Below are positions 30,457 to 47,272 of a stretch of 64,000 nt of DNA, piece by piece. Where the stretch lies: contig NZ_CP101322.1 of NCBI RefSeq assembly GCF_024300625.1, positions 1,625,992 to 1,689,991 of the forward strand, given 5' to 3'. The position numbers were made by a program, and so were the translations under genes. Position 1 is the first letter of the stretch. Every line of letters begins with the position of its first letter. The notes beneath the pieces are model-generated. The model was given only the letters and a program-made list of their open reading frames with translations. It searched no databases and was not told where the DNA came from. The stretch is from Halovivax gelatinilyticus (GTDB lineage Archaea; Halobacteriota; Halobacteria; Halobacteriales; Natrialbaceae).

Positions 30457-31050
30457 ATGACTTCTGGCCCGTCCATTCTCGCCGTCTCGGGCAGCCTCCG
30501 CGACGAGAGCTACACGCGGACGGCACTGAAATACGTCCTCGCGGCCGCGGCGGACGCCGGCGCCGAGACCGACCTCCTGGACCTTCGCGAGTACGACCTC
30601 CCGCTGTACGACCCTGACGTCGACGAGCAGGGCGACGAGACCGAGGTCCGTCGGCGCGTTCGCGACGCGGACGCGCTCGTCCTCGGAACGCCGGTCTACC
30701 ACGGCTCGTACTCCGGTGCGCTGAAGAACTTTCACGACTACTGCGGCAAGGACGACTACGAACACACGACCGTCGGCCTGCTGGCGACGGCCGGCGGCGG
30801 CAGTTTCGGCCCGACGCTCGATCACCTCCGATCGACGGTCCGGGGCGTCCACGGCTGGGTGGTGCCGAACCAGGTCGGCATCAGAAACGCGAGAAATCAG
30901 TTCGTCGACGATCCGAACGCGATCGACGGCCGCGCCGTTCGCGACTCGTCACTCGAAGATCGATTCGAGCGCCTCGGCGAGACGCTCGTCGCGTACGCGT
31001 ACATCGATCCGACGCAGGTAGCCGAGTCGGCATCCGCCGCGGACGACTAG
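30457..31050 (+). CDS. NADPH-dependent FMN reductase family protein
   Basis: 197 residues, flavodoxin-like. The FMN phosphate loop is VSGSLRDESYTRTAL, followed by LGTPVYHGSYSGALKNFHDY, which is the hallmark of the family, and LLATAGGG. These reduce FMN, quinones or azo compounds with NAD(P)H in the cytoplasm. Its stop is one base from the stop of the convergent GIY-YIG gene. Confidence 0.88.
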   Translation: MTSGPSILAVSGSLRDESYTRTALKYVLAAAADAGAETDLLDLREYDLPLYDPDVDEQGDETEVRRRVRDADALVLGTPVYHGSYSGALKNFHDYCGKDDYEHTTVGLLATAGGGSFGPTLDHLRSTVRGVHGWVVPNQVGIRNARNQFVDDPNAIDGRAVRDSSLEDRFERLGETLVAYAYIDPTQVAESASAADD

Positions 31051-31051
31051 C

Positions 31052-31297
31052 CTAGAGCCCGACGAGACGCTCCTTTTCGGCCCGCGAGTAGGTTTTGATC
31101 TCGTACTCGCGACTCATCGCGGCCGACCGGCTCTCGTAGCGTTCGACGTGGACGACGTCGACGGGCGTGCGCGATCGGGTGTACTTCGCCCCGTCGCCGG
31201 CGTTGTGTTCGTCGACCCGTCGATCGATATCGGTGGTGTAGCCCGTATACAGCGTTCCGTCGGCACACTCCAGAACGTAGACGACGTGATCCGTCAT
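31052..31297 (-). CDS. GIY-YIG domain nuclease-like protein
   Basis: 81 residues, a single GIY-YIG domain of the small YhbQ/UPF0213 kind. [16 protein letters not shown] supplies the two Tyr elements, [16 protein letters not shown] the catalytic Arg region, and the C-terminal [14 protein letters not shown] is conserved. The ATG giving [10 protein letters not shown] is chosen; the frame upstream is not protein-like. Role probably in DNA repair or processing, but small family members are poorly characterised. Confidence 0.85.
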
Positions 31298-31517
31298 TGA
31301 CCGACCGACGAACGCGCGGGAATATGGGCTCACCGGTCGTCTCTTCTCGACGATCGAGCGGATCCGGCCCGAGCGCGCGCGAGCCCTGTGGCATCGCCAA
31401 CTGGGCGAATTCGGACCGTTGATTATTCTTCCCGCATATAGGTTTCGGTGTAACACCGCGTCAATCGCCCGTTCGAGCCATCCTCAGGCCCGTAAACCCG
31501 TGTATTAAACAGAACGC

Positions 31518-31523
31518 TTATAA
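31518..31523 (+). promoter_or_regulatory. TATA-like box of the DUF1931 gene
   Basis: TTATAA lies 27 bases before the ATG within an otherwise GC-rich region, in agreement with a transcript that starts at or a few bases before the start codon. A purine stretch (AAGGGGGTGG) follows it. Confidence 0.5.
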
Positions 31524-31549
31524 GGGGGTGGACAGAACGGATAATTCGT

Positions 31550-31717
31550 ATGGCAGACCTTATCGTCAAAGCCGCGGTCAAAGAAGCGCTCGATGACAAG
31601 AACGTCGCCTCGGACTTCTACGACGCACTCGACGAAGAAGTCGAAGCACTCCTCGACGACGCCGCCCGGCGTGCCGAGGCCAACGACCGAAAGACCGTCC
31701 AGCCGCGCGACCTGTAA
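31550..31717 (+). CDS. DUF1931 histone-fold mini-protein
   Basis: 55 residues, MADLIVKAAVKEALDDKN, ending KTVQPRDL. The two-helix pattern with RRAEANDRKTVQPRD matches the DUF1931 family of archaeal histone-fold-like proteins, in which the C-terminal RKTVxPRD corresponds to the second DNA-binding loop of histones. Whether this short form binds DNA or acts as an adaptor is open. It has its own TATA-like box. About 90 bases follow before the convergent gene. Confidence 0.8.
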   Translation: MADLIVKAAVKEALDDKNVASDFYDALDEEVEALLDDAARRAEANDRKTVQPRDL

Positions 31718-31804
31718 GGCTGATCCACCCACTTTCTGCGCGCTCACACGTCGAGCAGTGCCACCGCCACGCCGATCGAGTACTCACGCATCGCCACCCG
31801 CGGG

Positions 31805-33094
31805 TTATTCTCGACGAACGAACCCGGTGATCGCAGTCAGCCGTTCGCGCAGTCGACCGAGCACCGACACCGACTCGCCATCGCGCTGATCGTTTTCGGC
31901 CGGCGATTGCGCTGACTCGTCGGACGCCAACGGGTCCGAGTCAGATTCCGCTCGCGGCGTGTCGACCGGGCCGAATCTCGTCGCGACGTCGGTGGGCGAG
32001 AGGACGTCGTCGACCGTAACCGACGGCCCGGTCTCGCTCGCCGACGGCGTCTCCGCACTCTCTGCTAGCTCGTCGTCACCGACCGAGTCGTCGTGTCGGT
32101 GAGGCGGTGCGAGGGCGGCGATGGCTTCGAGTTCTTCGCGAGTGACGAGCGGTCGGCTGCTCCTCGTGGTCCGGGGAGCCGGCATCGGTTCTCGACGGTC
32201 GGTCGATTCGGCGGTGTCGGTCGACGCAGGGATGTCGGTCGGATCGGAGGTGTCGGTCGGTTCGACGACGGGTTCGCGAACCGGTTCGGGCGGCCGGGCG
32301 GGTTCGACCGTCGTCGACTCCGGGTCGTCGCGGCCGGATCGATGGGACTCGAACGCGTCGGTCAGATCGACGGTGCCGTCCGAACCGAAGAACGTCGATG
32401 CCGTCGGTTCGGATCGGTTGTCGTCGTCTCCTTCGTCGTCGGTCGGCGTGTCCTCCGGTTCGGACGTCTCTCCGGCCGCTGGAACGGAGGCGTCGCTCAC
32501 GAGCGTGGCCATCGCTTCGTCCGGGTCGTCCGGCAGAAGGGCGTCGGTGGGCGACTCGTGCTCCGGTTCGAGCGTCTCTCCGGGTTCCTCGTCGACGAGC
32601 GCCAGAATCTCGTCGACGCCTCGCTCGGAGACCGTCCGCGTCGGGCCGCCGCCGGCGAGCGAACCGAACTCGGATTCGACCTCGCGCTCGACGCGCTCGA
32701 AGTCGTGATCCCGATCGGAGTCGAGCGTCCCGACGTACCGGTCGTCGCTCGCACTCGTCGATTCGACGGTCTCGTGGGCCGAACCGCTTTTCTCCGCCCG
32801 AGCGTCGCGCTCTAGCTGGTCGAACACCTCGTCGATCCCCGTCGTCGAGACGGTCGTGGTCGGACCGCCCGAGAGGCCGAACCCGCCGGCCGTCTCGTCG
32901 TCCGCGGGGGTCGAGATCTCCGCCAGGACGTCGTCGACGTTCTCCTCCGAGACGTGACGCCGAGGCCCACTCTCCCGGAGCCGGTCGACGACCGTCTCCG
33001 TGTCGACGTCCGCCGACTCGAGCAGCGCCTCGAGCGTCGTCGCGTCGGAAGACGACATGTTCGATCGGTCGCCGCCTTCCCATCGCGTTTCCAT
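31805..33094 (-). CDS. acidic disordered protein with repeated GP-VS-DE motifs
   Basis: 429 residues, very rich in Asp, Glu, Ser, Thr and Pro, with little expected fold. Three related short motifs recur: GPRRHVSEENVDDVLAEI (about 43-60), GPTTTVSTTGIDEVFDQL (about 77-94) and GPTRTVSERGVDEILALV (about 150-167), i.e. GP-x3-VS-x3-[VI]-D-[DE]-[VI]-[LF]. The C-terminus turns basic (GRLRERLTAITGFVRRE). A TATA-like TTTTTATTA on this strand (33126-33134) about 36 bases upstream favours this ATG. The function is unknown; the repeats look like docking or oligomerisation peptides. Confidence 0.65.
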   Translation of the reverse strand: METRWEGGDRSNMSSSDATTLEALLESADVDTETVVDRLRESGPRRHVSEENVDDVLAEISTPADDETAGGFGLSGGPTTTVSTTGIDEVFDQLERDARAEKSGSAHETVESTSASDDRYVGTLDSDRDHDFERVEREVESEFGSLAGGGPTRTVSERGVDEILALVDEEPGETLEPEHESPTDALLPDDPDEAMATLVSDASVPAAGETSEPEDTPTDDEGDDDNRSEPTASTFFGSDGTVDLTDAFESHRSGRDDPESTTVEPARPPEPVREPVVEPTDTSDPTDIPASTDTAESTDRREPMPAPRTTRSSRPLVTREELEAIAALAPPHRHDDSVGDDELAESAETPSASETGPSVTVDDVLSPTDVATRFGPVDTPRAESDSDPLASDESAQSPAENDQRDGESVSVLGRLRERLTAITGFVRRE

Positions 33095-33322
33095 CTCTGA
33101 TCGTTCTCTACGAGAATAATTGGGGTAATAAAAATTTGCGAGGTTTGTTGATACATTCGAGGCCCGTTCGATCGCAGTGGCCGCTTGAAGTCGCACTACG
33201 GTTGCTTGGGCCGGCTCAACTGTGGTTCAATTTCAACGGAACACCGTGTATCTTTAACGACCCCCAAACATTTCGAACGCTCATTACACACGCGTCCATC
33301 TCGAAAACGGTTGCCGGTTCGA

Positions 33323-33465
33323 CTAGCCCTCGCGCTCGTCACGGTACGTTCGCGTCCGACCGAGCAGCACGTAGTCGGTCTCGCGCAACTCGCCGACCGT
33401 CTCCGAGCCGGTGACGAACATCGCCGTCTGCAGCTCCATCGAGAGCGTCTCGATCAGGTCGACGA
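33323..33465 (-). pseudogene. truncated 3' end of fni (displaced copy)
   Basis: The last 46 or so codons of the type 2 IPP isomerase gene are repeated here, with an in-frame stop (ending TYRDEREG) where the intact gene ends TYRDERQ. The intact gene lies 2.6 kb to the right. Bases 33336-33465 are identical to 35991-36120 except for one C/T (Gly instead of Asp in VDELRE). There is no start or catalytic region, so this is a non-functional remnant. Confidence 0.9.
33336..33465. repeat. 130-bp direct repeat flanking an island, left copy
   Basis: 130 bases match 35991-36120 with one visible mismatch, same orientation. The match stops abruptly on both sides. The interval between the copies holds an AT-rich orphan gene and a propeller lipoprotein gene. 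This geometry, with the 3' end of a gene duplicated around inserted DNA, is that of attachment sites of integrated elements. Confidence 0.9.
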
Positions 33466-33481
33466 TAAGGTATCTGTGATT

Positions 33482-34513
33482 CTAATGAATCGGGTCCCCG
33501 CAGCCTGGTGTCTGGAATTTAACTCCACTGCCATATCGGCTACCGGTCCACAATCCACTGAACCGTGCGTCATAATCACATTCAACAATTGTCGAGCAGG
33601 CTCCATGGTGGCCTGACGCAATTGATACCGGTTCAAGCGTTTGCAGGCTTTTTGCTGCAGTACTACTAGAATCCACGTCGTGTTCCCACCGACGCCCCTG
33701 GCCCTGGGGATTGTGGATGACCATTTCTTCCGGGGGGATTGTTTGTGAGATAGACTCACTCACTCCAAATTCTATACCGGATTCTGAAGCACTGACACCA
33801 ACTGTTTGAGTTATCTCTTTGTAACCTGTGACTGGTTGATTTGGTGTCCAGTCGTGTAGGTCCATGTTGCTGTCCCAACTGTGACTAATATTCATGTCAC
33901 TAATCGATCCCGTGCTACTCTTCTCGTCATCGGCCTGTGCAGGGACAAAAGTTAGATGAGACTCTAGCTTGTATATTGGATCAGAATTGACTGTTCGATG
34001 TATCGAGGATCGGTCCTCTATTGAACCTCTTGAACCTTCGGTTGCAGGCACAATGTGTACAGAATCTTGTTCTATCCAGTCGTTAGACGATCCCTCCACG
34101 CGATTCTTGTTCTCGCTGTGTAGCTTTTCTCGAATTCTACTTAGCCTTTCATGTCTATTTAAATCGGCCGTAAAAGTAGCATCCTCTTCAGATACGACTT
34201 CAAACACTTGATTCGTTGTTCCCTTCTGTTTTCGTTCAATTCCGTATCCAACCAATCGACTTTCTTCGTATAGCTTTGGAACACCTAAGATTGGTTGAAA
34301 ATTGCTCTCATGCTCGTCTGTGCTGTATGTAATATTAGTCTGGATACGTTCGACATCCGCCATATTGATGGGATCATCATACGTACCGACTTCAACAAGC
34401 ATTTCCGGCACCGATTTTTGTCCCTCCCCTTTCGAACTTACTGTACTCACAATTCCTTGCAAGGAAGCCCTGCTGCACCGAGTTGAAGCGCCCTCCTCCT
34501 TCTGATCTCGCAT
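33482..34513 (-). CDS. AT-rich orphan gene of unknown function
   Basis: 343 residues, MRDQKEEGASTRCSR. No recognisable domain or membrane helix. The middle is polar with NSDPIYKLESHLTFVPAQ, and the last third has HPRE-free stretches such as SESISQTIPPEE and a final GCGDPIH. Base composition and codon use are far more AT-rich than in neighbours, which signals transfer. It ends 16 bases from the left 130-bp repeat. An exported or surface protein without clear signal, or a decaying gene, are both possible; the frame is open throughout. Confidence 0.5.
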   Translation of the reverse strand: MRDQKEEGASTRCSRASLQGIVSTVSSKGEGQKSVPEMLVEVGTYDDPINMADVERIQTNITYSTDEHESNFQPILGVPKLYEESRLVGYGIERKQKGTTNQVFEVVSEEDATFTADLNRHERLSRIREKLHSENKNRVEGSSNDWIEQDSVHIVPATEGSRGSIEDRSSIHRTVNSDPIYKLESHLTFVPAQADDEKSSTGSISDMNISHSWDSNMDLHDWTPNQPVTGYKEITQTVGVSASESGIEFGVSESISQTIPPEEMVIHNPQGQGRRWEHDVDSSSTAAKSLQTLEPVSIASGHHGACSTIVECDYDARFSGLWTGSRYGSGVKFQTPGCGDPIH

Positions 34514-34657
34514 TTATTGCCTTTCATTCCACACTGGCCAATGAAGTGTCCGGGTGAATTAAATATATCTAAAGACAATATACCAATCTAACAATAAATA
34601 ACAATAACTAACATTTACACCGGCTCAATCTGAGATATTTAACCCATCTATACAAAG

Positions 34658-34665
34658 TATTTATC
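34658..34665 (+). promoter_or_regulatory. TATA-like box of the island propeller gene
   Basis: TATTTATC begins 30 bases before the ATG. The whole 30 bases to the start codon align with those before the paralog at 43.2 kb, where the last twelve differ at only two positions (GGATGAAGGTAT against GCATGATGGTAT). Surrounding intergenic DNA (34514-34687) is strongly AT-rich. Confidence 0.5.
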
Positions 34666-34687
34666 ATTGGGCGATGGATGAAGGTAT

Positions 34688-35932
34688 ATGGGGTCAATTA
34701 GAAACTCCCGTCGGGCATTCCTCGCCGCGACGGGGTGTCTCGCCGCGACGGCGGGCTGTACCGGGTGGATCCTGGGATCGAAGCCGTCGTTCGACGAACT
34801 CGCGGCGGACGCGCCCGTTTCCGTCGACTGGGCGCACGAGGAGGTCGAACCGAACGAGGAAAGCGTCGAATCCCGTTCGATGAAGAACACCGCCGTACAG
34901 TTTCAACCGCGACGCGTGGGTGATACGATCGTGTTCGGGACCGGCGAACGGGTCGTCGCGGTGGATCCGGACGACGGATCGGTGCGATGGAGATACGTCG
35001 ATGAGGGGTTCCTCACGTCCAGACCGGTCCGTCACGACGGATCGCTGATCGTCGGCGGCGACAGACTGACCGCGCTCTCCGAACGGACCGGCGACGTCGT
35101 CTGGACCGTCGAACTGGATACCGACTCGTCCGGCAGACCTCGTGAAACCGGCGGAATCGGTGCGACGACCGACTCGCTGTTCGTCGGCTATCAACTCCCC
35201 CGCGGGGGTGACAGTCTGGCCGAACCAGGGCTCGTCCGAGTCGACGCAGACGACAGGGAGATCGTCGACCGCTACGACGAATTGCAAACGGTCCAGGCAC
35301 CGCCGGCGACGGACGACGAATTCGCGGTCGCGGTCGACGGCAATGTGAATTACGCCACGAGTCGGAAGGCCCCTCCGTCGGTCACCGCCTACGATTCCGG
35401 CGGCCACCTGTACTGGCGGTACGAATTCGAGCATCCGCACACGCGGATCGGCCCAGTACTCACGTCATCGCGGGTGTTCGCCGCCAGTCATGGCCACGGA
35501 TTTGACGGCGGATCGGTCGTCGCCATCGATAGAGAGAGCGGTGACGTGGAGTGGCGAGCTGAGCGTGATATCGGGCCGTCGACGCGGACGGCGCTCAGCC
35601 TCACCGACGATCTCGTCACCTTCCTCGACGGGGAGAACCACCTCGTCGCCCTCGAGAGAGACACCGGCGACGAGGTATGGACGGTTGACCTCGCGTACTA
35701 CGACGTCCACGACGAGCGACACGGTTCGCATCGAACGGTCCAGACGCCCGTCGTCGACGGCGACCGCGGCTACTGCACTGTTCTGGGGGCGCTGTTCGCG
35801 ATCGATCTGGCGGCGGGCGAAGTCGAGTGGGCCTACGCCGACGAGGAGACGCCGTTCGCCGGCCGCCCGCTCGCCGACGACGAGCGCCTCTTCGTGCCGA
35901 GCGGAACGTCGTTTTTCGCACTATCGGTGTAA
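34688..35932 (+). CDS. Tat lipoprotein with PQQ-like beta-propeller, island copy
   Basis: 414 residues. A Tat signal (NSRRAFLAATG) ends in the lipobox ATAGC; the mature part is a beta-propeller made of repeats such as VVAVDPDDGSVRWRYVDEG, LTALSERTGDVVWTVELD and VVAIDRESGDVEWRAERD. Such PQQ-like propellers in haloarchaea are surface lipoproteins, usually without bound PQQ. It is highly similar to the protein at 43228-44451, including HPHTRIGP and DGDRGYCT. It lies within the 130-bp-repeat island and reads toward the fni 3' end. Confidence 0.85.
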   Translation: MGSIRNSRRAFLAATGCLAATAGCTGWILGSKPSFDELAADAPVSVDWAHEEVEPNEESVESRSMKNTAVQFQPRRVGDTIVFGTGERVVAVDPDDGSVRWRYVDEGFLTSRPVRHDGSLIVGGDRLTALSERTGDVVWTVELDTDSSGRPRETGGIGATTDSLFVGYQLPRGGDSLAEPGLVRVDADDREIVDRYDELQTVQAPPATDDEFAVAVDGNVNYATSRKAPPSVTAYDSGGHLYWRYEFEHPHTRIGPVLTSSRVFAASHGHGFDGGSVVAIDRESGDVEWRAERDIGPSTRTALSLTDDLVTFLDGENHLVALERDTGDEVWTVDLAYYDVHDERHGSHRTVQTPVVDGDRGYCTVLGALFAIDLAAGEVEWAYADEETPFAGRPLADDERLFVPSGTSFFALSV

Positions 35933-35980
35933 CGCCCTCTGATCTGCCGATATAGGGGTTTAGAACAGTCCCGTCAGTTA

Positions 35981-37039
35981 CTACTGGCGTTCGTCACGGT
36001 ACGTTCGCGTCCGACCGAGCAGCACGTAGTCGGTCTCGCGCAACTCGTCGACCGTCTCCGAGCCGGTGACGAACATCGCCGTCTGCAGCTCCATCGAGAG
36101 CGTCTCGATCAGGTCGACGACCGCGTCGGTTCCCTTTCCGGCCGGGCCGAGAAACGGCTTTGCGAGTCCGCCCGCCCGCGCGCCGAGGGCGATCGCCTTC
36201 GCGACGTCTAAGCCCGACCGCACGCCCCCGCTCGCGATCACGCAGTCGTGGACGGCCGCGGCTTCGAGGGTGCTGATCGCCGTCGGGACGCCCCACGCGC
36301 GAAAGCGCTCGCCGACGGCGGCCTGCCGGTCGGCGCCGACCGCGCGGGCGCGGTAGGACTCGATTCCCGACCAGGTCGTTCCGCCCTTCCCGGCGACGTC
36401 GATGGCGTCGACGCCGGCGTCGGTGAGCCGTTCGGCCGTCTCGCGGCTGATTCCGTTGCCCGTCTCCTTGACCACGACCGGGACGGAGAGGTCGCTCGCG
36501 ACCGCTTCGATCCCGTCCAGACAGCCGCGCGCGTCGACGTCGCCTTCGGGCTGGACGGCCTCCTGGAGGAAGTTCAGGTGGATCGCCATCGCGTCGGCGT
36601 CGATCATTTCGACGGCCCGCTCGACGTCTGCGACACCGTACTCGGCCAGCTGGGCGGCGCCGACGTTGCCGTAGAGGACGGCGTCGGGGGCCACGTCGCG
36701 GACGACGGTGTACGACTCCAGCAGGTCGGGATCGTCGAGTTCGAGCCCGGCGCGCTGGCTGCCGACGCCCATCGCGATCCCCGTCTCCTCGGCGGCCTCG
36801 GCGAGCGCGCGGTTTATCTTCGTCGTGTTCGGGTGGCCGCCGGTCATGCTCTCGATGACGATCGGAGCGGACAGCTCGCGCCCGAACAGCGAGACCGACA
36901 GATCGATCTCGTCGCGGTGGATCTCCGGCAGCGCCTCGTGGACGAGTTCGACGTCGGCGAAGCCGGTGCCGGTCGTCTCGACGTCTTCTTCCTCGATGAT
37001 GCGGATGTGGTCGTCCTTGCGATCTGCGGTCTCGGGCAT
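35981..37039 (-). CDS. fni: type 2 isopentenyl-diphosphate delta-isomerase
   Basis: 352 residues, FMN- and NADPH-dependent enzyme interconverting IPP and DMAPP for isoprenoid lipid synthesis. Landmarks: [19 protein letters not shown] near 65, [35 protein letters not shown], and [30 protein letters not shown]. Complete and with a normal start, [11 protein letters not shown]. The last 130 bases are duplicated 2.6 kb downstream, and the terminal residues (DERQ) differ from those of the displaced copy (DEREG). Confidence 0.95.
35991..36120. repeat. 130-bp direct repeat flanking an island, right copy (inside fni)
   Basis: This copy forms the present 3' end of fni. It matches the left copy at 33336-33465 with a single C/T difference. 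The sequence from 35980 back to 33466 would be the inserted element. Confidence 0.9.
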
Positions 37040-37157
37040 CTACCCCACAGGTTGGGACAGCCGGTCAAAAACCGTTCGTTTGTTCGTTCCCGGCGGTTTC
37101 GTCTCGATATCCCGTTTCCCACCCTCGTTTTTGACGCCGGCCGTGGAGCGACGTGAT

Positions 37158-37622
37158 ATGGTTCGAAGTCGACTCCCGGCGCTCGTCCGATCGGCCATGA
37201 TCGCCTTCGGCGTCTTCGAGGTGCTCAAACCGCGTCCGGTCATCGCCGCGTGCGAGCGAATCGGGATCGAGAACCCCGGAGACGCGCGCCTGCGAACGCG
37301 AGCGGTCGAACTCGCCCGACTCGAGGGGCTGCTCGTCGTCTGGCTGCTCGTCCGCGGCCGGCGGCGAGCCCGACTGTCGAGTACGATCCTCCTCGTTGGT
37401 GGCGTCGTCGCCGCGCTGGCGCCGCGCCCACTGATCCGACTCAGCCAGTCGTTCGCTTACGAGAACCCGACCGACCTCCGACTCGAACCGTGGGTGGTGC
37501 CCGCCGCGCGGGCGCTGGGCGTACTCTATCTGGCGGTCGTTTTCCTGGCTGGGACTGCCGACGCAGAAGATGGAGAAGCGGGCCTCGACGCGAGCGCCGA
37601 GACGGGGCCGGTCACTCGATGA
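37158..37622 (+). CDS. small membrane protein
   Basis: 154 residues with about four hydrophobic segments: an N-terminal amphipathic one ([20 protein letters not shown]), two central and one near 115-135, then an acidic tail. Two similar blocks, [27 protein letters not shown] and [27 protein letters not shown], show an internal duplication. It starts at the ATG for MVRSRLPAL. Its 3' end overlaps the convergent rpiA gene by 11 bases. Function unknown. Confidence 0.65.
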
Positions 37623-38295
37623 CGTCGACGCCGTCGTCGCGCCCGACGTAGGTCGCGTCGGCCAGCCCGACGAAGAGTCCGTGCTCGACGACGCCGGGGA
37701 TCGCCGATAGCTGGGCTGCCAGCCCCGCGGGATCGTCGAGTTCACCGAAGTCGCAGTCGAGCACGAGGTGGCCGTCGTCGGTGACGACGGGGCCGTCCTT
37801 GCGCTCGGCCGGCCGAAGCGTCGGTTCGCCGCCCAGTTCGCGAATTCGGTCGGCGACGACGCCCTCCGCGTCCGGGAGCACCGCCACCGGAACCGGCCAG
37901 TCGAGTCGATCGGCGAGTTTCGAGTCGTCGACGACGACCAGAAACCGATCTGCGGCCGCGTCGATCAGCTTCTCTCGGGTGTGAGCCGCCCCGCCACCTT
38001 TGATCAGGTCGCCGTTTGCCACCTGGTCGGCCCCGTCGATCGCGAGGTCGATTCCCTCAACGGCCGAGAGCGTCGTCACCGGAATTCCGGCGTCGCGAGC
38101 GAGTGCGGCCGACTGGCGAGACGTCGCGACGCCTCGCACGTCGAGTCCGTCGGCGACGGCCCGGCCGATCGCCTCGATCGCGTAGGCGGTCGTGGAGCCG
38201 GTCCCCAGCCCGACGACCGTGCCGTCTTCGACCGCCTCCGCCGCCGCCTCGGCCGCGCGCCGTTTCGCCCCCGCAGATCCGTCCCCGGCTTTCAT
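37612..38295 (-). CDS. rpiA: ribose-5-phosphate isomerase A
   Basis: 227 residues interconverting ribose 5-phosphate and ribulose 5-phosphate. Motifs: [26 protein letters not shown] with the catalytic Asp, [20 protein letters not shown] with catalytic Lys, and [13 protein letters not shown] at the C-terminus. Start ATG gives MKAGDGSAG. It overlaps the opposing membrane protein gene at its end by 11 bases. Full length for the family. Confidence 0.95.
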
Positions 38296-38403
38296 AGCTA
38301 CGACACGGGACGGACGCGACAAAAATCCCGCTGTCGGCGGTTCGATTCCGGTGACGCTCGGTACCGGCGAACTCACCGCTGCCCGCGCACGGTTTTGCCC
38401 GGT

Positions 38404-39519
38404 CTACTCGTTCGGGTCGAGTACGTCCGTTTCGGCGTACGACGCTCGCTCGCCGTCGTCGGCCGACGCGTCCGGTTCGCTCTCCGGCAGTGCGAACTCG
38501 GCGACGATCGGTTCGTATCGCTCGAGTTCGCGGGCGTGGACCTCGTCGGCGAGCAGTTCGACGGCCTCGACGAAGACGGCGACGATGAGCGGACCGATCA
38601 CGATGCCGATCGGCCCCATCGTGAACAGCCCGCCGGTAAAGCCGACGAAGTAGAGGCTGCCGGGGAGGCCGGCCGATCGGTACGCCAGCTTCGGTCTGAT
38701 GTAGACGTCTGGGAACCAGGCGATGAGTCCCACGCCGAGCACGCCGACGAGGATGGCCGCGGCGATGTCTCCCTGGAGCACCTCGTAGCCGGCGAGCGGC
38801 AGGATCAGGAGGCTCGGCCCGATGATCGGGACGAACTGTAAGATAGCGGCGATCATCGCGAGCGTGAACGCGACGTCGTATCCGAGGGCGAGAAAGAGCG
38901 GGTAGCCGATCAACAGCGTCGCGATACCGGTCGCGACCTGGAGCACGTAGATGGCGTACAGCGTCTCCTGGGCCCGGGTGGCGAGCGCGGCGACCACGTC
39001 CCGGTAGGCCGGCGGCACGGGGGCGACCGCCGCCTTGGCCGCCGCCCGACCTTTCAACAGGAGGGCAAAGAGCAGGAGGACGAACAGCGCGAACTTGATG
39101 ACGAGCTCCGGCAATGCCCAGACGAACGCGACGGCGAACGCGCCGACGACGTCGAGAAGGGCGTCCTGAATCAGCGCCGACTCCACGGTGACGGTCTCGC
39201 CGAACGCGGTGATCGGTATCTCGTCTGGAACGCTTCGGATCAGCGCCTCCAACTCGTCGATCCGGTAATAGACGGTGACGAAGATCGGGGCGAACACCGC
39301 GAGCGCTCCGAGAAAACCGACGAGAGTCGCACCGATGGCCGCCAGTCGCTCGCCGAGTCCGCGTCTGACCAGCCAGCGCTGGACCGGGACGAGGACGAAC
39401 GCGACGGTGATGGCGAACAGGATCGTCGCGAGCACTTCCAGCAGAATAATGCCGGTGAGAATGCCGAGGAGGACGACGATGGCCGCGAGCGCGTACCGTC
39501 GATCGAGGTCGGGCGTCAC
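38404..39519 (-). CDS. AI-2E family transporter (PerM-like)
   Basis: 371 residues and about eight membrane helices, from a GTG giving MTPDLDRRYALAAIV; a longer frame upstream is not protein-like. FIPIIGPSLLILP-type block (FVPIIGPSLLILPLAGYEV) and GPIGIVIGPLIVAVFVEAVELL near the end are the family signatures. Members are proposed transporters of small signals or ions; the name refers to one studied case, so the substrate is open. An acidic tail follows the last helix. Confidence 0.85.
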   Translation of the reverse strand: MTPDLDRRYALAAIVVLLGILTGIILLEVLATILFAITVAFVLVPVQRWLVRRGLGERLAAIGATLVGFLGALAVFAPIFVTVYYRIDELEALIRSVPDEIPITAFGETVTVESALIQDALLDVVGAFAVAFVWALPELVIKFALFVLLLFALLLKGRAAAKAAVAPVPPAYRDVVAALATRAQETLYAIYVLQVATGIATLLIGYPLFLALGYDVAFTLAMIAAILQFVPIIGPSLLILPLAGYEVLQGDIAAAILVGVLGVGLIAWFPDVYIRPKLAYRSAGLPGSLYFVGFTGGLFTMGPIGIVIGPLIVAVFVEAVELLADEVHARELERYEPIVAEFALPESEPDASADDGERASYAETDVLDPNE

Positions 39520-39646
39520 GGTCGTGACTCTCAGCCGTAGCGCATAGTCTTTTGGTCGGCGCCGATCGCTCACGATGGCTGAGCTACGCGGTCGCGCGGA
39601 CTGCTGGAATCGCCAGCGTCTTGGCCGGTTCGCCCCAACACCGTCC

Positions 39647-40561
39647 GTGTCCCGCGCGACCGACGTCTCGCTGTTTCTCGTCCTCTCGCTGCTCTGGGGG
39701 CTGTCGTTTCCCGCCATCGCGGTCGGCCTGGAGTACCTGCCGCCGCTTCTGTTCGCCGCGTTCCGGTACGACCTCGCTGCCATCCTGCTGCTCGCGTTCG
39801 CGGCGCTGCGGATCGACGGCTGGTGGCCCGACGAGCGTCACGACCTGGCGGCGATCGCCGCCGGCGGACTCTTTCTCGTCGCTGGTAACGGACTGCTGTT
39901 CATAGGCCAGCAGACCGTTCCGAGCGGAGTCGCCGCGATCTTGCAGTCGATGACGCCGATCGTGACGGCGCTGCTGGCGATCGCGCTCTTAGACGAGCGT
40001 CTGTCGGCCGTCGGCGCGGTCGGCGTCGCGATCGGCTTTCTCGGCGTCGGGTTCGTCGTCTCGCCCGACCCGGGCAATCTCGCGGCCGGCGACACGCTCG
40101 CCCGCCTGCTCATCGTCGGACAGGTGATCTCCATCGCGCTCGGCGGCGTCCTCGTCCAGCGAGCCCGGCCGACGATCGACCGCGTCGCGCTCACCGGCTG
40201 GTCGATGGTCGTCGGCGCGCTGGTCCTGCACGCCGTCAGCCTGGGTTCGGGCGAGCTACCCGACGGTAGCGTCACCGCCCCTCTGGCTCTCGGCTCGATC
40301 GTGTATCTCGGCGTCTTCTCCACCGCGATCGCCTTTCTCATCTACTTCACCATCCTCGAAGAACACGGCGCGTTCGAGGCGGCGCTCGTCTCGTATCTCG
40401 TTCCGATCGTGGCGACGATCGCCGGCGTGTTCGTCCTCGGCGAGTCGATCGGCGTCGCCGCGTTCGTCGGGTTCGGGCTGGTTGCCGTCGGATTCGCGCT
40501 CGTCAAACGCCACGCGCTCGTCGACGTCTTCGGACTCGTTTCCGGCACCGGCCGGTCGTGA
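39647..40561 (+). CDS. EamA/DMT family transporter
   Basis: 304 residues from a GTG giving MSRATDVSLFLV, or 328 from an ATG at 39575 whose extra 24 residues are not conserved-looking. Ten helices in two EamA repeats: first FLVLSLLWGLSFPAIAVG to LLDERLSAVG, second through YFTILEEHGAFEAALVSYLVPIV and LGESI. Members export metabolites such as amino acids. Divergent from the AI-2E family gene by about 130 bases. Confidence 0.85.
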   Translation: MSRATDVSLFLVLSLLWGLSFPAIAVGLEYLPPLLFAAFRYDLAAILLLAFAALRIDGWWPDERHDLAAIAAGGLFLVAGNGLLFIGQQTVPSGVAAILQSMTPIVTALLAIALLDERLSAVGAVGVAIGFLGVGFVVSPDPGNLAAGDTLARLLIVGQVISIALGGVLVQRARPTIDRVALTGWSMVVGALVLHAVSLGSGELPDGSVTAPLALGSIVYLGVFSTAIAFLIYFTILEEHGAFEAALVSYLVPIVATIAGVFVLGESIGVAAFVGFGLVAVGFALVKRHALVDVFGLVSGTGRS

Positions 40562-40585
40562 GGGCGGCGGCCTCGGGCCCGACTT

Positions 40586-42244
40586 TCACTCGGCCAGCCA
40601 CTCGCTCGCCTGGGGTTCGTTCGGGTCGGTCGGAACCTCGACCAGGACCGGCTCGTCGCGGGCGACGGCATCCGTTACCGCGTCGGAGAGCGCGTCGGAG
40701 TCGGCCGCGCGCACGCCGCTCATGCCCAGGCTCTCTGCGAGGGCGACGAAGTCGATCGGGGCATCCGACCAGCCGTAGGCGCTCGGGCGGAGCGCGTACG
40801 ATCGCTCGGCTTCCTCACTGATGATCGCGTAGTCTTCGTTTCGAAAGACGACGACGGTGATCGGTAGTCCTTCGGCGACGGCCGTGTGGAGTTCGTGAAT
40901 ACACATCATGAGCCCGCCGTCGCCGGTGAGCACGACGACATCGTCGTCCGGGTTCGCCACCTGCGCACCGATTCCCGAGGGGAGGCCGGTTCCCATCGTC
41001 GCCCACGAACCCGGGTTGACGTAGGACTGCGGACCGTAGGCGTCGAACGCGTTGAGCGCCCAGACGCGAAAGCCGCCGGCGTCGACGGCGACGGTCGTCT
41101 CCCGGGAGAGCGCCTCGCGGACGAGTCCGAGCGCGCGGACGGCGGTCAGCGGTCGGTCGTCGTCCCGAAGCGATTCCGTCCGTTCGTGAAAGTCCGCACG
41201 CACTGCCTCCGCCCGGCGCGCACCCGCCGTCTCGTCGGCGCCGTTCGGCCCTGCGATCCCGCGTTCGGCGAGCGCGCCGCCGATCGCCGGGAGGGCGTCG
41301 GCCGCGTCGGCGAGCAGGCTGACCGACGGCTCGTAGCCGGTGGCCAGGTCGTCAGGATCGAGCGTCACGTGGACCAGCTCGTCGGGCACGTCGACCGACC
41401 ACGCTCGCGTCGCGACCGCGTCGAAGTCCGTGCCGACGGCGAGCATCCCGTCCGCGTTCGCCAGCAGCTCGAGGAGCGCCGGCGGCGCGCTACCCGAGAG
41501 CGTCCCCGCCGAGAGGGGGTGGTCGGCCGGGATCGTTCCCTTCCCCTTGTACGTCGTCACCACCGGCGCGTCGAGGCGGGTCGCGACGGCTTCCAGGTCG
41601 ACGCTCGCATCGGCGGCCCGAACCCCGCCACCCGCGAGCACGACCGGGGCGTCGGCCGACGCGAGCAGGTCGGCGGCCGCGTCGACGTCGCGCGCGGCGG
41701 CGCCTTTCGGCCCCTCGCGTTGGAAGGCGGGCGGGTCGGCGAGCGCGACGTCCATCTTCAGGAAGTTCTTCGGAATCCCGACGCGAACCGGGCCCTTCGG
41801 CGGCGTCTCTGCGACCGCGATCGCCGATTCGAGCGTCGCGACCGTCGATTCGGGCTGGGTTACGAGGACGTTCTCCTTGACGACCGTGTCGTACGTTTCC
41901 GGCGGCGTCTCGTGGATCCCCTCGCCGCCGCGGATCTCGGGTTCGGTCTCGACGGCGACGTGGACGAGCGGCGTACAGTCGTTGTACGCGTTCTTCAGCC
42001 CGTTCATCGCGTTCATGTCCCCGGGCCCGGGGACGACCACGGTGGCCGCCGTCTTCCCGCTGGTCTCGGCGTAGCCCCACGCCTGGTGGGTGACGGCCGT
42101 CTCGTGGCGAGCCATCACGAACCGGACGTCCTCGCGTCCGTCGATGGCCTCGTTCAGCGGGAGCGTCTGCTTTCCGGGAATACCGAAGACGGTGTCGACG
42201 CCGTTCGCGACGAGCGCGTCGACCACCGCTGCGTGCACCTGCAT
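40586..42244 (-). CDS. thiamine diphosphate-dependent enzyme, acetolactate synthase-like
   Basis: 552 residues in three domains. The Pyr domain has VFGIPGKQTLPL and MARHETAVTHQAWGYA (activating Glu); the central domain has VVLAGGGVRAAD; the PP domain has LTGDGGLMMCIHELHTAV with Asn in FRNEDYAII, the GDG-x(~26)-N metal site. Acetolactate synthase large-subunit-like, but no regulatory small subunit is adjacent. Decarboxylase, sulfopyruvate or other keto-acid chemistry is equally possible. ATG for MQVHAAVVDALV. Confidence 0.85.
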   Translation of the reverse strand: MQVHAAVVDALVANGVDTVFGIPGKQTLPLNEAIDGREDVRFVMARHETAVTHQAWGYAETSGKTAATVVVPGPGDMNAMNGLKNAYNDCTPLVHVAVETEPEIRGGEGIHETPPETYDTVVKENVLVTQPESTVATLESAIAVAETPPKGPVRVGIPKNFLKMDVALADPPAFQREGPKGAAARDVDAAADLLASADAPVVLAGGGVRAADASVDLEAVATRLDAPVVTTYKGKGTIPADHPLSAGTLSGSAPPALLELLANADGMLAVGTDFDAVATRAWSVDVPDELVHVTLDPDDLATGYEPSVSLLADAADALPAIGGALAERGIAGPNGADETAGARRAEAVRADFHERTESLRDDDRPLTAVRALGLVREALSRETTVAVDAGGFRVWALNAFDAYGPQSYVNPGSWATMGTGLPSGIGAQVANPDDDVVVLTGDGGLMMCIHELHTAVAEGLPITVVVFRNEDYAIISEEAERSYALRPSAYGWSDAPIDFVALAESLGMSGVRAADSDALSDAVTDAVARDEPVLVEVPTDPNEPQASEWLAE

Positions 42245-42390
42245 GCCCGGGTGTTGGCGGGGCGATAATATGAACGGCCGTATTTGCGCTCGCAGCCTCA
42301 CGTGTCGTCTTCGCTATTCGGGACCGGATCCGCCCGACATCGATCGGTCGGAGCGGAACGGATTTGATCGCGGACTCTCAACTGCCCGAT

Positions 42391-43071
42391 ATGACGGCCG
42401 TCACGACGGTACTCTTCGATCTCGACGAGACGATCTGTACGCATCCGACGCCGTCGTCCGAGCGGCTCGCAGCCGCGTTCGACCGTGCCGGCGTCGAGCC
42501 GTTCTTCGAGGCGGCGGACTACCACCGGCTGGTCGGCGAGATCGGCGGTACCGGGAGCGACGTCCGTCGGCGCGAGGTGTGCTTTCGCCGCCTCGCCCGC
42601 AAAGCGGGATACGACGAGGCGGTCGGCCTCCGCGTCGCGGACGCTTACCGGGCGGTGACCGACTACACGGCGGCCGAGTTCCTGCCGGACGCCAAGGCTG
42701 TTCTCGACACCCTCGCAGATCGGTACCGCCTGGGGCTGGTCACGAACGGCGGACCTGACACGCAGTCGGTGAAGATCGACGCGCTCGGCCTTCGCGACCG
42801 CTTCGAGACGGTCGTCCTGGCGGGCTACGAAACCGCGGCCAAGCCCGATCCAGAGCCGTTCGAGACGGCGATGGCGGATCTGGGAAGCAGCCCGGAAGCG
42901 GCCATCTACGTCGGTAACTCGCCGGAGCACGACGTCGCCGGTGGCGCCGCCTGCGGGATGCGAACGGTCTGGTATCCGGACGACGCGAACGACGGATGTT
43001 CGGTTACACCCGACTACCGGATCGACAGCCTCGACGAACTGTTGGATCCGCCGTGGAATATGACCGGTTGA
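42391..43071 (+). CDS. HAD superfamily hydrolase
   Basis: 226 residues. HAD motifs: LFDLDETICTHP (nucleophile and acid Asp; Glu replaces the usual Gly), LVTNGG (motif II), AAKPDPEPF (Lys of motif III) and YVGNSPEHDVAGG (motif IV). A cap domain of helices spans about 15-85. Phosphatase of an unknown small substrate. ATG is chosen over a TTG nine codons upstream. Divergent from the ThDP enzyme. Confidence 0.87.
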   Translation: MTAVTTVLFDLDETICTHPTPSSERLAAAFDRAGVEPFFEAADYHRLVGEIGGTGSDVRRREVCFRRLARKAGYDEAVGLRVADAYRAVTDYTAAEFLPDAKAVLDTLADRYRLGLVTNGGPDTQSVKIDALGLRDRFETVVLAGYETAAKPDPEPFETAMADLGSSPEAAIYVGNSPEHDVAGGAACGMRTVWYPDDANDGCSVTPDYRIDSLDELLDPPWNMTG

Positions 43072-43199
43072 TATCGAACAGTGCCGGTTTGCCCGTTATT
43101 AGCAGACAACTCTTGGAGTTTATTAATAACAATATCTTATAACAACCTCCAAACTTTACATCACGGGGTGTACTGTTGATTAAGGCACTAGGATAAATT

Positions 43200-43207
43200 A
43201 CTTATTA
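43200..43207 (+). promoter_or_regulatory. TATA-like box of the second propeller gene
   Basis: ACTTATTA begins 28 bases before the ATG in an AT-rich upstream region (43075-43227). The 30 bases next to the start codon align with those of the island paralog. Confidence 0.45.
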
Positions 43208-43227
43208 TCGCCATTGCATGATGGTAT

Positions 43228-44451
43228 ATGAACTCCATTGGAAAATCGCGACGGGCCTTCCTCGCGACTACAACGGGGTGTCTCGCCGCGACGGCGGGCT
43301 GTGCGGGATGGGTCCGCGGGTCGAATCCCTCCTTCGACGAACTCGCGGCGGACGCACCAGTTTCCGTCGATTGGGCACACGAGGAGGCTGCCGCGTACCA
43401 TTCGGGTACGAACCGGGCGTTTCAACCGGTGCGCGCGGACGACGCCATCGCGTACACGACTGATGAACGGATTGTCGCGCTGGATCCGGACGACGGGTCG
43501 GTGCGGTGGCGCTACGTCGATGATGGGTACGTCTCGTCGAGACCGGTGCGTCACGATGGATCGCTGATCGTCGGTGGTGAGCAATTGATCGCGCTCTCCG
43601 AACGGACCGGTGACGTCGCGTGGTCTCTCGAACTCGACCAGGATTCTCGTGGGTTCGCGTACGAAACCGGTGGAATCGGTTCCACGGACGATATTCTGTA
43701 CGTCGGATACCGACATCCTACCTTAGCGGACAATCTTGAAAAACCTGGACTCGCCCGGGTTGATCTCGACGACAGAGAGATAGTTGACCGCTACGACGAC
43801 GTGCATACGGTCCTGGCGCCGCTAGCCACGGACGACGATTTCGCGGTAGTAGTGGACGGCGATGCCCAATACAGCAATAGTTTAGTCGGGCCACGAGCGG
43901 TCGTCGCCTACGATTCGGGCGGACCGCGCTGGCGGTACGAATTCGAGCATCCGCACACGCGAATCGGCCCCGCGCTCACGTCGTCGCGGGTGTATGCCGC
44001 CAGTCACGGCTACGGATTCGACGGCGGCTCGGTCGTCGCCATCGATAGAGATACTGGTGACGTGGAGTGGCAAGCCGAGCGCGAGGTTGGACCGTCCACC
44101 CAGACGGCACTCACCGTCACCGACGATATTGTCACATTCCTCGACGGGGAGAATCAACTCGTCGCCCTCGACAGAGACAGCGGTGACGAGGCGTGGACGG
44201 TAGCGTTCCCCGCCACCGACGTTCACGAGGGAACCAGATATGCGTCCTTTCGAACGGTATCGGCACCAGTCGTCGATGGCGACCGCGGTTACTGTACCAA
44301 CTCTGGGGCGCTGTTCGTGATCGACCTCGTGGCGGGTGAGATCGAGTGGGCTTACGCCGACGAGGAGGCGCCGTTCAGCGGCCGCCCGCTCGTCGGCGAC
44401 GAGCGACTCTATGTTCCGAGCCCAACATGGTTTTTCGGATTGGAGGCGTAA
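43228..44451 (+). CDS. Tat lipoprotein with PQQ-like beta-propeller, second copy
   Basis: 407 residues, closely similar along its length to the island protein at 34688-35932. Tat signal KSRRAFLATTTG with lipobox ATAGC; propeller repeats VALDPDDGSVRWRYVDDG, LIALSERTGDVAWSLELD, VVAIDRDTGDVEWQAERE. Shared blocks include HPHTRIGPALTSSRVYAAS and VDGDRGYCTNSGALF. Differences cluster in the linker after the signal and around 150-210. No adjacent partner gene; the upstream region is AT-rich, so it may also be acquired. Confidence 0.85.
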   Translation: MNSIGKSRRAFLATTTGCLAATAGCAGWVRGSNPSFDELAADAPVSVDWAHEEAAAYHSGTNRAFQPVRADDAIAYTTDERIVALDPDDGSVRWRYVDDGYVSSRPVRHDGSLIVGGEQLIALSERTGDVAWSLELDQDSRGFAYETGGIGSTDDILYVGYRHPTLADNLEKPGLARVDLDDREIVDRYDDVHTVLAPLATDDDFAVVVDGDAQYSNSLVGPRAVVAYDSGGPRWRYEFEHPHTRIGPALTSSRVYAASHGYGFDGGSVVAIDRDTGDVEWQAEREVGPSTQTALTVTDDIVTFLDGENQLVALDRDSGDEAWTVAFPATDVHEGTRYASFRTVSAPVVDGDRGYCTNSGALFVIDLVAGEIEWAYADEEAPFSGRPLVGDERLYVPSPTWFFGLEA

Positions 44452-44531
44452 CCACCGCACTCATCGATATAGAGCAGGCTGCTCTCGACGTGCGCTGTCC
44501 GACCGGGAATCGCCGGTCGTTCGACACCGAT

Positions 44532-45491
44532 TCAGTCGCTGGGTTGGGGCGTCCTCGCCACCGATCGCGTTCGGAGGCCGCCGCTGACCCACGGTACCAG
44601 CACGACCATCGCCAGAAACAGCGCCGACCAGGCGACGATGAAGACGTTGTTACCGATACCGAGTTCCGCGACGAACCAGGTGACGAGGACGACGCCGACG
44701 GCGACGACGGGGATGACGCGCTCGGCGGCGGTCTCGCGAATCCGGGCGGCGATAGTTGGCGCGAACGTCCAGGCGACGAGCCCGCCGACGGCGGCGCCGA
44801 AGACGATGTGGGCGTTGCGACTGCCGGAGACCGCCAGCGCGCCGATCGCGAAGACGAGTCCGAGGGCGAACGAACCGGTCGGGGCGTCGAGTCGGAGACG
44901 GACGCGGTCGGTCGGGTCGGCGACGAAACTCGCGTCTCCGGCTCGCGTCTCGGTCCATCTCCGGACGCCGACGTAGAGTGCCAGAAACGCGAGGCCGTAG
45001 GCGACGCCCCCGACCACGTCTCCGGGGTAGTGGACGCCGAGTGCGATCCGGGTGAAGCCGACCCAGCCGACGAAGGCAGCGCCGACGACCGCTCGCCTGG
45101 TGCGCGTCCCCACCGGCAGATCGTAGACGATCACGCCGGCGACGATCGTCGCCGCCAGCGCGTGGCCGCTCGGAAAGCTCGACGTCGAAATGAGCGCGGC
45201 GTGTTCGTAGGCCGGAACGAGAACGGCCGGAAACGCGTCGGGCCCGACGGGCGGATCGACGGCCGGCCGACTCACCGAGTGGATCGACTTCGTGATCGAC
45301 ATCAGGGCGTAACAGCCGACGATCGCGCCCAGCCACGGCGCGACCAGCTCGCGCGCTCGCCAGTAGGCGGCGATCATCGCCGGCGCGATCAGGTAGACGC
45401 TGCCGAGATACGAGAGCAGAACGATGACGACGGCGAGCCACGTCGGAATCGCCTCGCCGACGGCTTGCACCACCCCGGGATCGAACCACAT
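44532..45491 (-). CDS. PAP2-family membrane phosphatase
   Basis: 319 residues, about nine helices. PAP2 motifs KSIHSVSRP, FPSGH, and TRIALGVHYPGD; in the last, Thr stands in place of the usual Ser. The start MWFDPGVVQAVG mirrors the paralog at 26.2 kb (MWFDPAVVELI), which supports this ATG over two others 24-33 bases upstream. Like its paralog it has a helical C-terminal extension (about 195-310). Confidence 0.83.
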   Translation of the reverse strand: MWFDPGVVQAVGEAIPTWLAVVIVLLSYLGSVYLIAPAMIAAYWRARELVAPWLGAIVGCYALMSITKSIHSVSRPAVDPPVGPDAFPAVLVPAYEHAALISTSSFPSGHALAATIVAGVIVYDLPVGTRTRRAVVGAAFVGWVGFTRIALGVHYPGDVVGGVAYGLAFLALYVGVRRWTETRAGDASFVADPTDRVRLRLDAPTGSFALGLVFAIGALAVSGSRNAHIVFGAAVGGLVAWTFAPTIAARIRETAAERVIPVVAVGVVLVTWFVAELGIGNNVFIVAWSALFLAMVVLVPWVSGGLRTRSVARTPQPSD

Positions 45492-45872
45492 CGACTGATC
45501 CGAATTGGTACGCATACTTGACATTGTCGAAACACGTGTTCTCGTCTTATACGTCGAAGATGACTTTACGTCCGAATCGTTGGGCGATTCGCCACCGAGC
45601 CATCCGACCGCAAGAACTGCAACGCTGTTCCCGGAGCATTCCTGCACCAATGGATATTTTTATTTGGGTTTACCGTGGCCGGCGTCGGGATCGGTTCACC
45701 CGGCAACCGCCACTCGATTGTGGGTGATCGAGCCCCGTTGTCTCCGCATCTGCGGGAGATGATCGGGTCCTGGAGTCTCCGCATAGGCGGGGCGATCTCT
45801 CCCGTATCGTCACATCGACGCGAGCGAAATAGGTACACTCAAACCGGGACTGGCCCAACCCCGTTGACAGAC
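45492..45872. other. 381-base gap with AT-rich promoter and two tandem hairpins
   Basis: An AT-rich TATA-like run (GATATTTTTATTTGGG, about 45652-45667) points toward the gene at 45873. Downstream, two similar hairpins follow each other: CTCCGCA/TGCGGGAG (about 45740-45757) and CTCCGC/GCGGGG (about 45778-45793), each starting GTCTCCGCAT. If transcription starts after the TATA-like run, they lie in a leader of about 180 bases. A GTG frame from 45675 exists but is Arg/Ser-rich and unconvincing. Confidence 0.4.
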
Positions 45873-46301
45873 ATGGCTTCGAGATTCGACGCCGCCGGCG
45901 AGTCGATTCCGACGGCGACGCTCGCGGTTCGGGGGGTAGTGGCACTGATTCTCTCGATCCTCGGCAACGGCGCGTTGCTCGGGATCGTCCTCGCGACGGA
46001 CGTCGTCTCCCGGTTCGATGCGCTCTCGCCGATCCCGGTCTTCTTCCTCACGATCGTCGGCGTGATCGGCGCGACGGTCGTCTTCGGCGCGCTCACCCGC
46101 CGGTCGGACCGGCCGGATCGAACGTTCACGCTCGTCGCGGCAGTGGTCCTCCTCGCTTCGTTCGCGCCGGATCTCTACATACTGAGCGAGGATCCCGACG
46201 CGACGGCCGGCGCCGTCGCCGTCCTGATGGTGATGCACGTGGTCGTCGCGGCGGCGTGCGTCTTCGCGCTGACGGACCGCTACTCGCCGATCGCCCGGTG
46301 A
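45873..46301 (+). CDS. four-span membrane protein
   Basis: 142 residues, MASRFDAAGESIPTATLAVR, with four hydrophobic helices; the connecting loops are short and the third carries SEDPDATAG. The pattern resembles DUF6069-type small membrane proteins but the match is weak. It stands alone, divergent from the PAP2 gene, possibly with a long leader. Confidence 0.65.
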   Translation: MASRFDAAGESIPTATLAVRGVVALILSILGNGALLGIVLATDVVSRFDALSPIPVFFLTIVGVIGATVVFGALTRRSDRPDRTFTLVAAVVLLASFAPDLYILSEDPDATAGAVAVLMVMHVVVAAACVFALTDRYSPIAR

Positions 46302-46381
46302 GGCGTCAATCGATTCGGGGTGGACTGACAGGTCGTCCGCCTGACCGATTGTCGACAGAACGCTCAGTCACCGAACGCGCG

Positions 46382-46810
46382 TCACCGATCGCCTCGCCGC
46401 CCACCGCGCGAACGCGTCGACACGCCCGGCCGTTCACGGAGTCGGTCGGGCAGGTGCCAGGCGATGTCGGTGAGCGTGACGATTCCGAGCGGTTTCTTCC
46501 CGCCGCGAATCGGGAGCCGCTTGACGTTCTCTTCTTCCATCGTTCGCAGGGCGCTCGTCACGCTCGTCGTCGACGTGATCGTCGCCAGATCGGTACTCAT
46601 CACGTCGGCGACCACCAGCTCGTCGAGGCGCTCGCGCTCGACGTAGGTGGCCCGGAGCACGTCCGACTCCGTCACGATTCCCGCGAGACCCTCGTCCATC
46701 ACGACGACGCTCCCGACGCGGTGGTCGAGCATCAGCCCGGCCGCCGTCCGGAGCGAGTCGTCGGGGCCGGCGGTGAGCACCGGTGACGACATGATCTCGC
46801 GAACTTCCAT
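46382..46810 (-). CDS. tandem CBS domain protein
   Basis: 142 residues with two CBS units: the first around VREIMSSPVLTAGPDDSLRTAA to GIVTESDVLRATY, the second around VADVMSTDLATITSTTSV to GIVTLTDIAWHL. The pair usually binds an adenosine nucleotide and reports energy state. A basic Arg-rich tail ends the protein. No effector domain or obvious partner adjoins it. Confidence 0.88.
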   Translation of the reverse strand: MEVREIMSSPVLTAGPDDSLRTAAGLMLDHRVGSVVVMDEGLAGIVTESDVLRATYVERERLDELVVADVMSTDLATITSTTSVTSALRTMEEENVKRLPIRGGKKPLGIVTLTDIAWHLPDRLRERPGVSTRSRGGRRGDR

Positions 46811-46978
46811 GGCGTGTACTGGGCGGTTCGGTGCATAACTCTTCCGTCGGTTTGACAGGACTGCGACGGCGATGAGCGACGTCGGCCGCCTACCGAACGG
46901 ACGCCGTCGGATTCGCCGAGGAATGCGATCCGGATTCGCATCCGTGGGTTTTTGATCCGTCCCGCAGATCTGCGAACG

Positions 46979-47245
46979 ATGGCGCTTACGAAACTACTCA
47001 GCGGTCTCTTACAGATCGTCGTGACGGTCGCCGTGTTGATCGCGGTCGGGGTCGTCGCGTTTTTCATCACCGTGTTCGTCGTCTCGCAGGGCGCCCGGCT
47101 GGCCGGCTACGACCCGAGCGGCGACTTCGTCGTCCTCTCCGCGTCGCTGCTCGTCGTCGCCGCCCTCCTCGGCGGGATTCCGCTCGGTCAGTCCCGAACG
47201 GACAATTCGCCGCGAGACGAGTACGACACGACCGGGTTCCAGTGA
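46979..47245 (+). CDS. small two-span membrane protein
   Basis: 88 residues, MALTKLLSGLLQIVVTV, with helices at about 9-36 and 50-70 and a polar, Asp/Asn-rich tail. No motif. It faces the helicase gene and ends 28 bases from its stop. Confidence 0.6.
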   Translation: MALTKLLSGLLQIVVTVAVLIAVGVVAFFITVFVVSQGARLAGYDPSGDFVVLSASLLVVAALLGGIPLGQSRTDNSPRDEYDTTGFQ

Positions 47246-47272
47246 GTTCGGCGCGTCGGCCGACGGCCGCCC

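Follow-up and report, generated by a model that had tools for sequence, protein, structure and literature searches.

A recent insertion of 2.5 kb at the 3' end of the fni gene in Halovivax gelatinilyticus

The fni gene of Halovivax gelatinilyticus has recently received a genuine insertion of 2.5 kb at its 3' end. The insert gives no evidence of being a mobile element, and is explained equally well or better by a recombination accident of the ordinary kind. The gene itself has stayed intact, and its native end now lies displaced on the far side of the new DNA.

The window analyzed here is a stretch of 64,000 nucleotides (assembly GCF_024300625.1, contig NZ_CP101322.1, positions 1,625,992-1,689,991 of the forward strand), taken from a genome assembled as a single contig of 3.70 Mb. 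All coordinates below are those of the window, and the features discussed are as follows.

31805..33061, minus strand: gene directly after fni in congeners, marker of the empty site
33323..33465, minus strand: left repeat copy, the displaced native fni 3' end, a remnant ending in DEREG*
33466..35990: inserted 2.5-kb segment, missing in congeners
33482..34513, minus strand: orphan gene, 343 aa, 47% GC
34688..35932, plus strand: propA, a PQQ/BamB-type beta-propeller with Tat motif and lipobox
35981..37039, minus strand: fni, type 2 IPP isomerase, intact, with a new tail (DERQ*) from the insert
35991..36120, minus strand: right repeat copy, the present 3' end of intact fni
43228..44451, plus strand: propB, 70% identical to propA and either its paralog or an orthologue-like relative

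Results

The 3' end of fni is duplicated on both sides of the insert

Positions 33336-33465 and 35991-36120 form a direct repeat that is identical at 129 of 130 positions. The sole mismatch (C at 33393, T at 36048) changes D to G in the left, remnant copy. With a few mismatches allowed, the ungapped match reaches 33329-33465 and 35984-36120 at 97.8%. The identity breaks off abruptly just before the stop codon, and the tail that follows is partly similar, with five of the next seven bases matching. The intact gene, which encodes 352 aa and ends in TYRDERQ*, has the right copy as its 3' end, while the left copy is a 5'-truncated remnant that ends in TYRDEREG*, with its stop codon at 33323-33325. 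The first-pass annotation had described exactly this: a sharp-ended 130-bp direct repeat with one difference, one copy ending the intact gene and the other a remnant with its own stop. Among repeats longer than 60 bp, the window holds only this one and the propA/propB gene pair. Chance does not explain the 130-bp repeat, since the fni ends of congeners match the stretch at only 74-83%.

Related genomes carry the empty site

We compared the locus with four other sequenced Halovivax species, one of which corresponds to Halovivax asiaticus JCM 14624. The interval is missing in all four, where the homologue of the gene at 31805-33061 comes 254-288 bp after fni. Halopiger goleimassiliensis also has an empty site, with the same homologue 245 bp after fni. 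When the flanks of the insert were joined in silico (fni to 36121, then the left copy onward), the product aligned with the congener sequence from the fni end through the next gene. Thus, what remains as the left copy is the gene's own original end, displaced, and 33466-35990 is new DNA, a genuine insertion between fni and its neighbor. The gene was kept intact, its tail and stop codon being supplied by the incoming end. An empty site in related genomes had been anticipated and was found in the four congeners and in Halopiger goleimassiliensis; a relative with the interval but without the repeat did not turn up, all four congeners being without the interval.

The congener fni ends differ from the repeated stretch at 21-32 of 121-123 bp, whereas the two copies differ from each other at one of 130. 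The duplicated end is therefore conspecific and, unless gene conversion has since evened out the copies, the insertion is recent. If it arose by a single crossover, whether site-specific or homologous, host and donor each contributed one base at every position of the repeat, and the donor's fni end must be conspecific too; if the junction was illegitimate, both copies are the host's own.

The wider region (30457-47273) is variable within the genus: AI2E, HAD, propB and PAP2 genes come and go within a conserved frame of nadph-giy-fni-rpiA-TPP.

The insert carries an orphan gene and a surface propeller gene

As first reported, the cargo consists of two genes only, the orphan and a surface propeller, and no integrase lies inside: neither gene belongs to a recombinase family. 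The insert had also been called AT-richer than its surroundings, which holds for 33466-34650 (45% GC) and fails for the propeller half, where propA has 66% GC, near that of its surroundings.

The orphan gene has a GC3 of 42%, against 81-91% in neighboring chromosomal genes. No relative was found in 392 genomes of the order, in species-representative genomes, or among viral contigs, phages and plasmids, nor in Pfam, NCBIfam, PHROGs or PDB; weak matches (E 0.006-0.4) were rejected as frame noise. The protein is acidic, with 13% Ser. Its AlphaFold model has a pLDDT of 33, too poor for a fold search, and a helix with strands is predicted at very low confidence.

The propA product carries an RRxFL motif and a Cys lipobox, and judging from these motifs is probably a Tat lipoprotein. 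The only close relative is propB, at 70% identity; the next best matches in 125 genomes of the family are propellers at 26-43% over partial length. The propB gene, a second Tat-lipoprotein propeller, lies between a HAD hydrolase gene and a PAP2 gene, 8.5 kb from propA. Neither propA nor propB is present in the four congeners. Between the two, dN is 0.20 and dS is 0.65, and the resulting dN/dS of 0.30 suggests that both propellers are under selection. For neighboring orthologues compared between the source species and the congeners, dS is mostly 0.45-0.83. The divergence of propA from propB is thus that of most neighboring orthologues, which gives propA the look of a gene from the chromosome of a related species. 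It may come from another Halovivax-like species, as that species' orthologue of propB, although no congener has either gene.

Searches of phages, plasmids and viral contigs returned no homologue of the cargo and no homologous element. The suggestion that the same cargo might be found behind fni or elsewhere thus came to nothing in these collections, and no second fni case was found in the 392 genomes of the order.

Homologous recombination could account for the insertion

We favor, at about even confidence, a recent one-off capture by the cell's own homologous recombination rather than by a dedicated integrase. That the 2.5-kb segment with propA and the orphan gene entered between fni and its neighbor, leaving fni intact and the 130-bp gene end doubled, is shown by the comparison above; the mechanism is what is proposed. 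By one route, end joining would have circularized a fragment that carried propA, the orphan gene and an fni end of the same species, creating the junction at 33465/33466, and the circle would have entered by one crossover inside the fni end, as in a Campbell-type integration. By the other, donor DNA would have paired with fni close to the gene's last codons, while an illegitimate joint linked the donor's other end to position 33465 on a sister chromosome copy, an instance of homology-facilitated illegitimate recombination. Either route would put the incoming tail and stop codon on the working gene and strand the old 3' end.

What is seen at the locus is a partial duplication of a gene end beside non-homologous DNA, with no recombinase. 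The abrupt loss of identity before the stop codon, followed by a tail matching at five of seven bases, is what a junction with the tail of a related fni should show. The empty sites, the conspecific repeat end and the lack of both a recombinase and a second instance likewise argue for capture, and so does the orthologue-like divergence of propA from propB. Precedents exist in bacteria. With E. coli, a conjugation assay yielded mostly gene-end duplications of 109-950 bp, formed when a circular molecule underwent a single crossover (PMC3240628), and in Vibrio arrays displaced gene 3' ends have been attributed to homology-facilitated illegitimate recombination (PMC5361080).

Several points weigh against capture. 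Integrase sites, such as that of e14 in icd, classically look alike: the gene end is restored, a stop follows at once, and the boundary falls within the gene. The route through a circle needs a donor with a nearly identical fni end although propA looks diverged, and the route through an illegitimate junction requires the crossover to fall in the last dozen homologous bases. No donor that explains the junction ends was found in the collections searched, which leaves no source sequence with which to compare either junction.

The chief alternative is an integrase supplied in trans

Site-specific integration is possible, although we consider it rather doubtful. The insert would then be a remnant or satellite whose attP carried the 3' end of fni, and its integrase would have come from elsewhere in the cell or have been lost afterwards. 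With attP and attB recombining at the repeat's inner edge (33465/36120), the element's copy would rebuild fni, in the geometry of e14 in icd, where a 163-bp icd duplicate is left (PMC6379469). The locus does show direct repeats at both ends, a rebuilt target gene, a displaced native end and empty sites in relatives. Archaeal elements are known to use the 3'-distal parts of protein-coding genes (PMC6563490, PMC8371274). The first-pass annotation had called such a target unusual in haloarchaea, which is fair, but there is precedent in virus BJ1, whose reported target is the HMG-CoA reductase gene (PMC8371274).

The genome has five tyrosine recombinase matches, and no serine recombinase was found in it. 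However, the insert contains no recombinase, and none of the 20-kb neighborhoods of the five host genes holds an att repeat resembling the fni end; the proposed search for an integrase with a matching attP was thus negative there. Comparison of the insert with the integrase regions by tblastx gave only GC-rich noise. The attP would need to be conspecific, and at 130 bp the repeat exceeds published archaeal att sites, which are 29-69 bp in crenarchaea and mostly under 26 bp in thaumarchaea (PMC6563490).

Dyad symmetry in the repeat was also weighed as a candidate crossover core. The palindrome ATCGAGA-CGC-TCTCGAT lies 11 bp from the repeat edge, and palindromes this long occur in 22% of the 130-bp stretches of the window, a background frequency. 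A 28-bp match of the repeat's inner edge at 3.196 Mb of the genome was taken as chance; the site presumably lies in a cysteinyl-tRNA synthetase gene, recognized by eye. An exact 20-mer match in viral contigs, which falls within a portal-like gene from a tailed phage, was likewise set aside as chance.

No further fni 3'-end remnant occurs in the 392 genomes of the order, and the fni loci of named genomes hold none besides one assembly-gap artefact. In that case, Halorubrum distributum JCM 10118, an exact 89-bp duplication of the fni end spans a single N and is probably due to scaffolding. Unrelated elements make up the repeats around fni in Natrinema hispanicum DSM 18328, two MITE-like palindromic repeats of 68 bp that are 98.5% identical, one just after the gene and the other 3 kb downstream; the conspecific strain CDM_6 is without them there.

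The original idea of an element that integrates in a gene's 3' end and rebuilds it therefore survives in part: the insertion, the rebuilt fni and the displaced native end stand, while a site-specific element is unsupported, for want of a recombinase, an att match and a second case. We regard as quite unlikely the specific version in which the insert is a haloarchaeal satellite island, a minimal recombinase-less cassette with the fni 3' end as its true attachment site and a host tyrosine recombinase mobilizing it in trans.

Fill-in of a staggered break and assembly error are less probable

A staggered break with long fill-in would make the repeat a 130-bp target-site duplication, produced by break repair or a transposition of unknown kind, with the new fni stop arising by chance from the insert. 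The block is near-perfect in both copies and sharp-ended, as a fill-in duplication of host DNA would be. This is nevertheless unlikely: 130 bp would be an extreme length for a target-site duplication, no transposase, Cas1 or terminal inverted repeats were seen at the insert, and the similarity appears to run on into the tail (5/7 bases).

An assembly or local duplication error, raised in the first-pass annotation, is very improbable even though the species is represented by one genome only, because that genome forms one contig of 3.7 Mb, the two copies are not identical, the insert has unique genes, and a repeat of 130 bp is short. A simple tandem duplication, moreover, would have copied the cargo as well.

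Discussion

The fni locus offers a clean before-and-after example in which a haloarchaeal chromosome gains genes beside an isoprenoid-pathway gene without breaking it. At present it is one more documented insertion of a kind already known. If the fni site recombines repeatedly, it would be a second isoprenoid-pathway landing site in haloarchaea after the HMG-CoA reductase gene of BJ1.

Among known systems, e14 in icd of E. coli resembles the insert in that incoming DNA restores the C-terminus of a housekeeping enzyme and leaves the displaced gene end as a long direct repeat (PMC6379469); e14, however, is a 15-kb prophage, whereas the Halovivax insert is 2.5 kb long, has no recombinase and has been seen once. 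The thaumarchaeal iMGEs and BJ1 likewise target the 3'-distal part of a protein-coding gene, with an insertion defined by empty sites and a stop codon supplied by the insert (PMC6563490, PMC8371274), but they carry element genes and have mostly short att sites (8-69 bp). Like the fni insertion, the single-crossover and homology-facilitated illegitimate integrations duplicate part of a gene end (109-950 bp) next to captured DNA and involve no integrase (PMC3240628), and the latter also strand gene 3' ends downstream of new cargo (PMC5361080). Those events were described in bacteria, whereas in Halovivax a role for haloarchaeal polyploidy is assumed.
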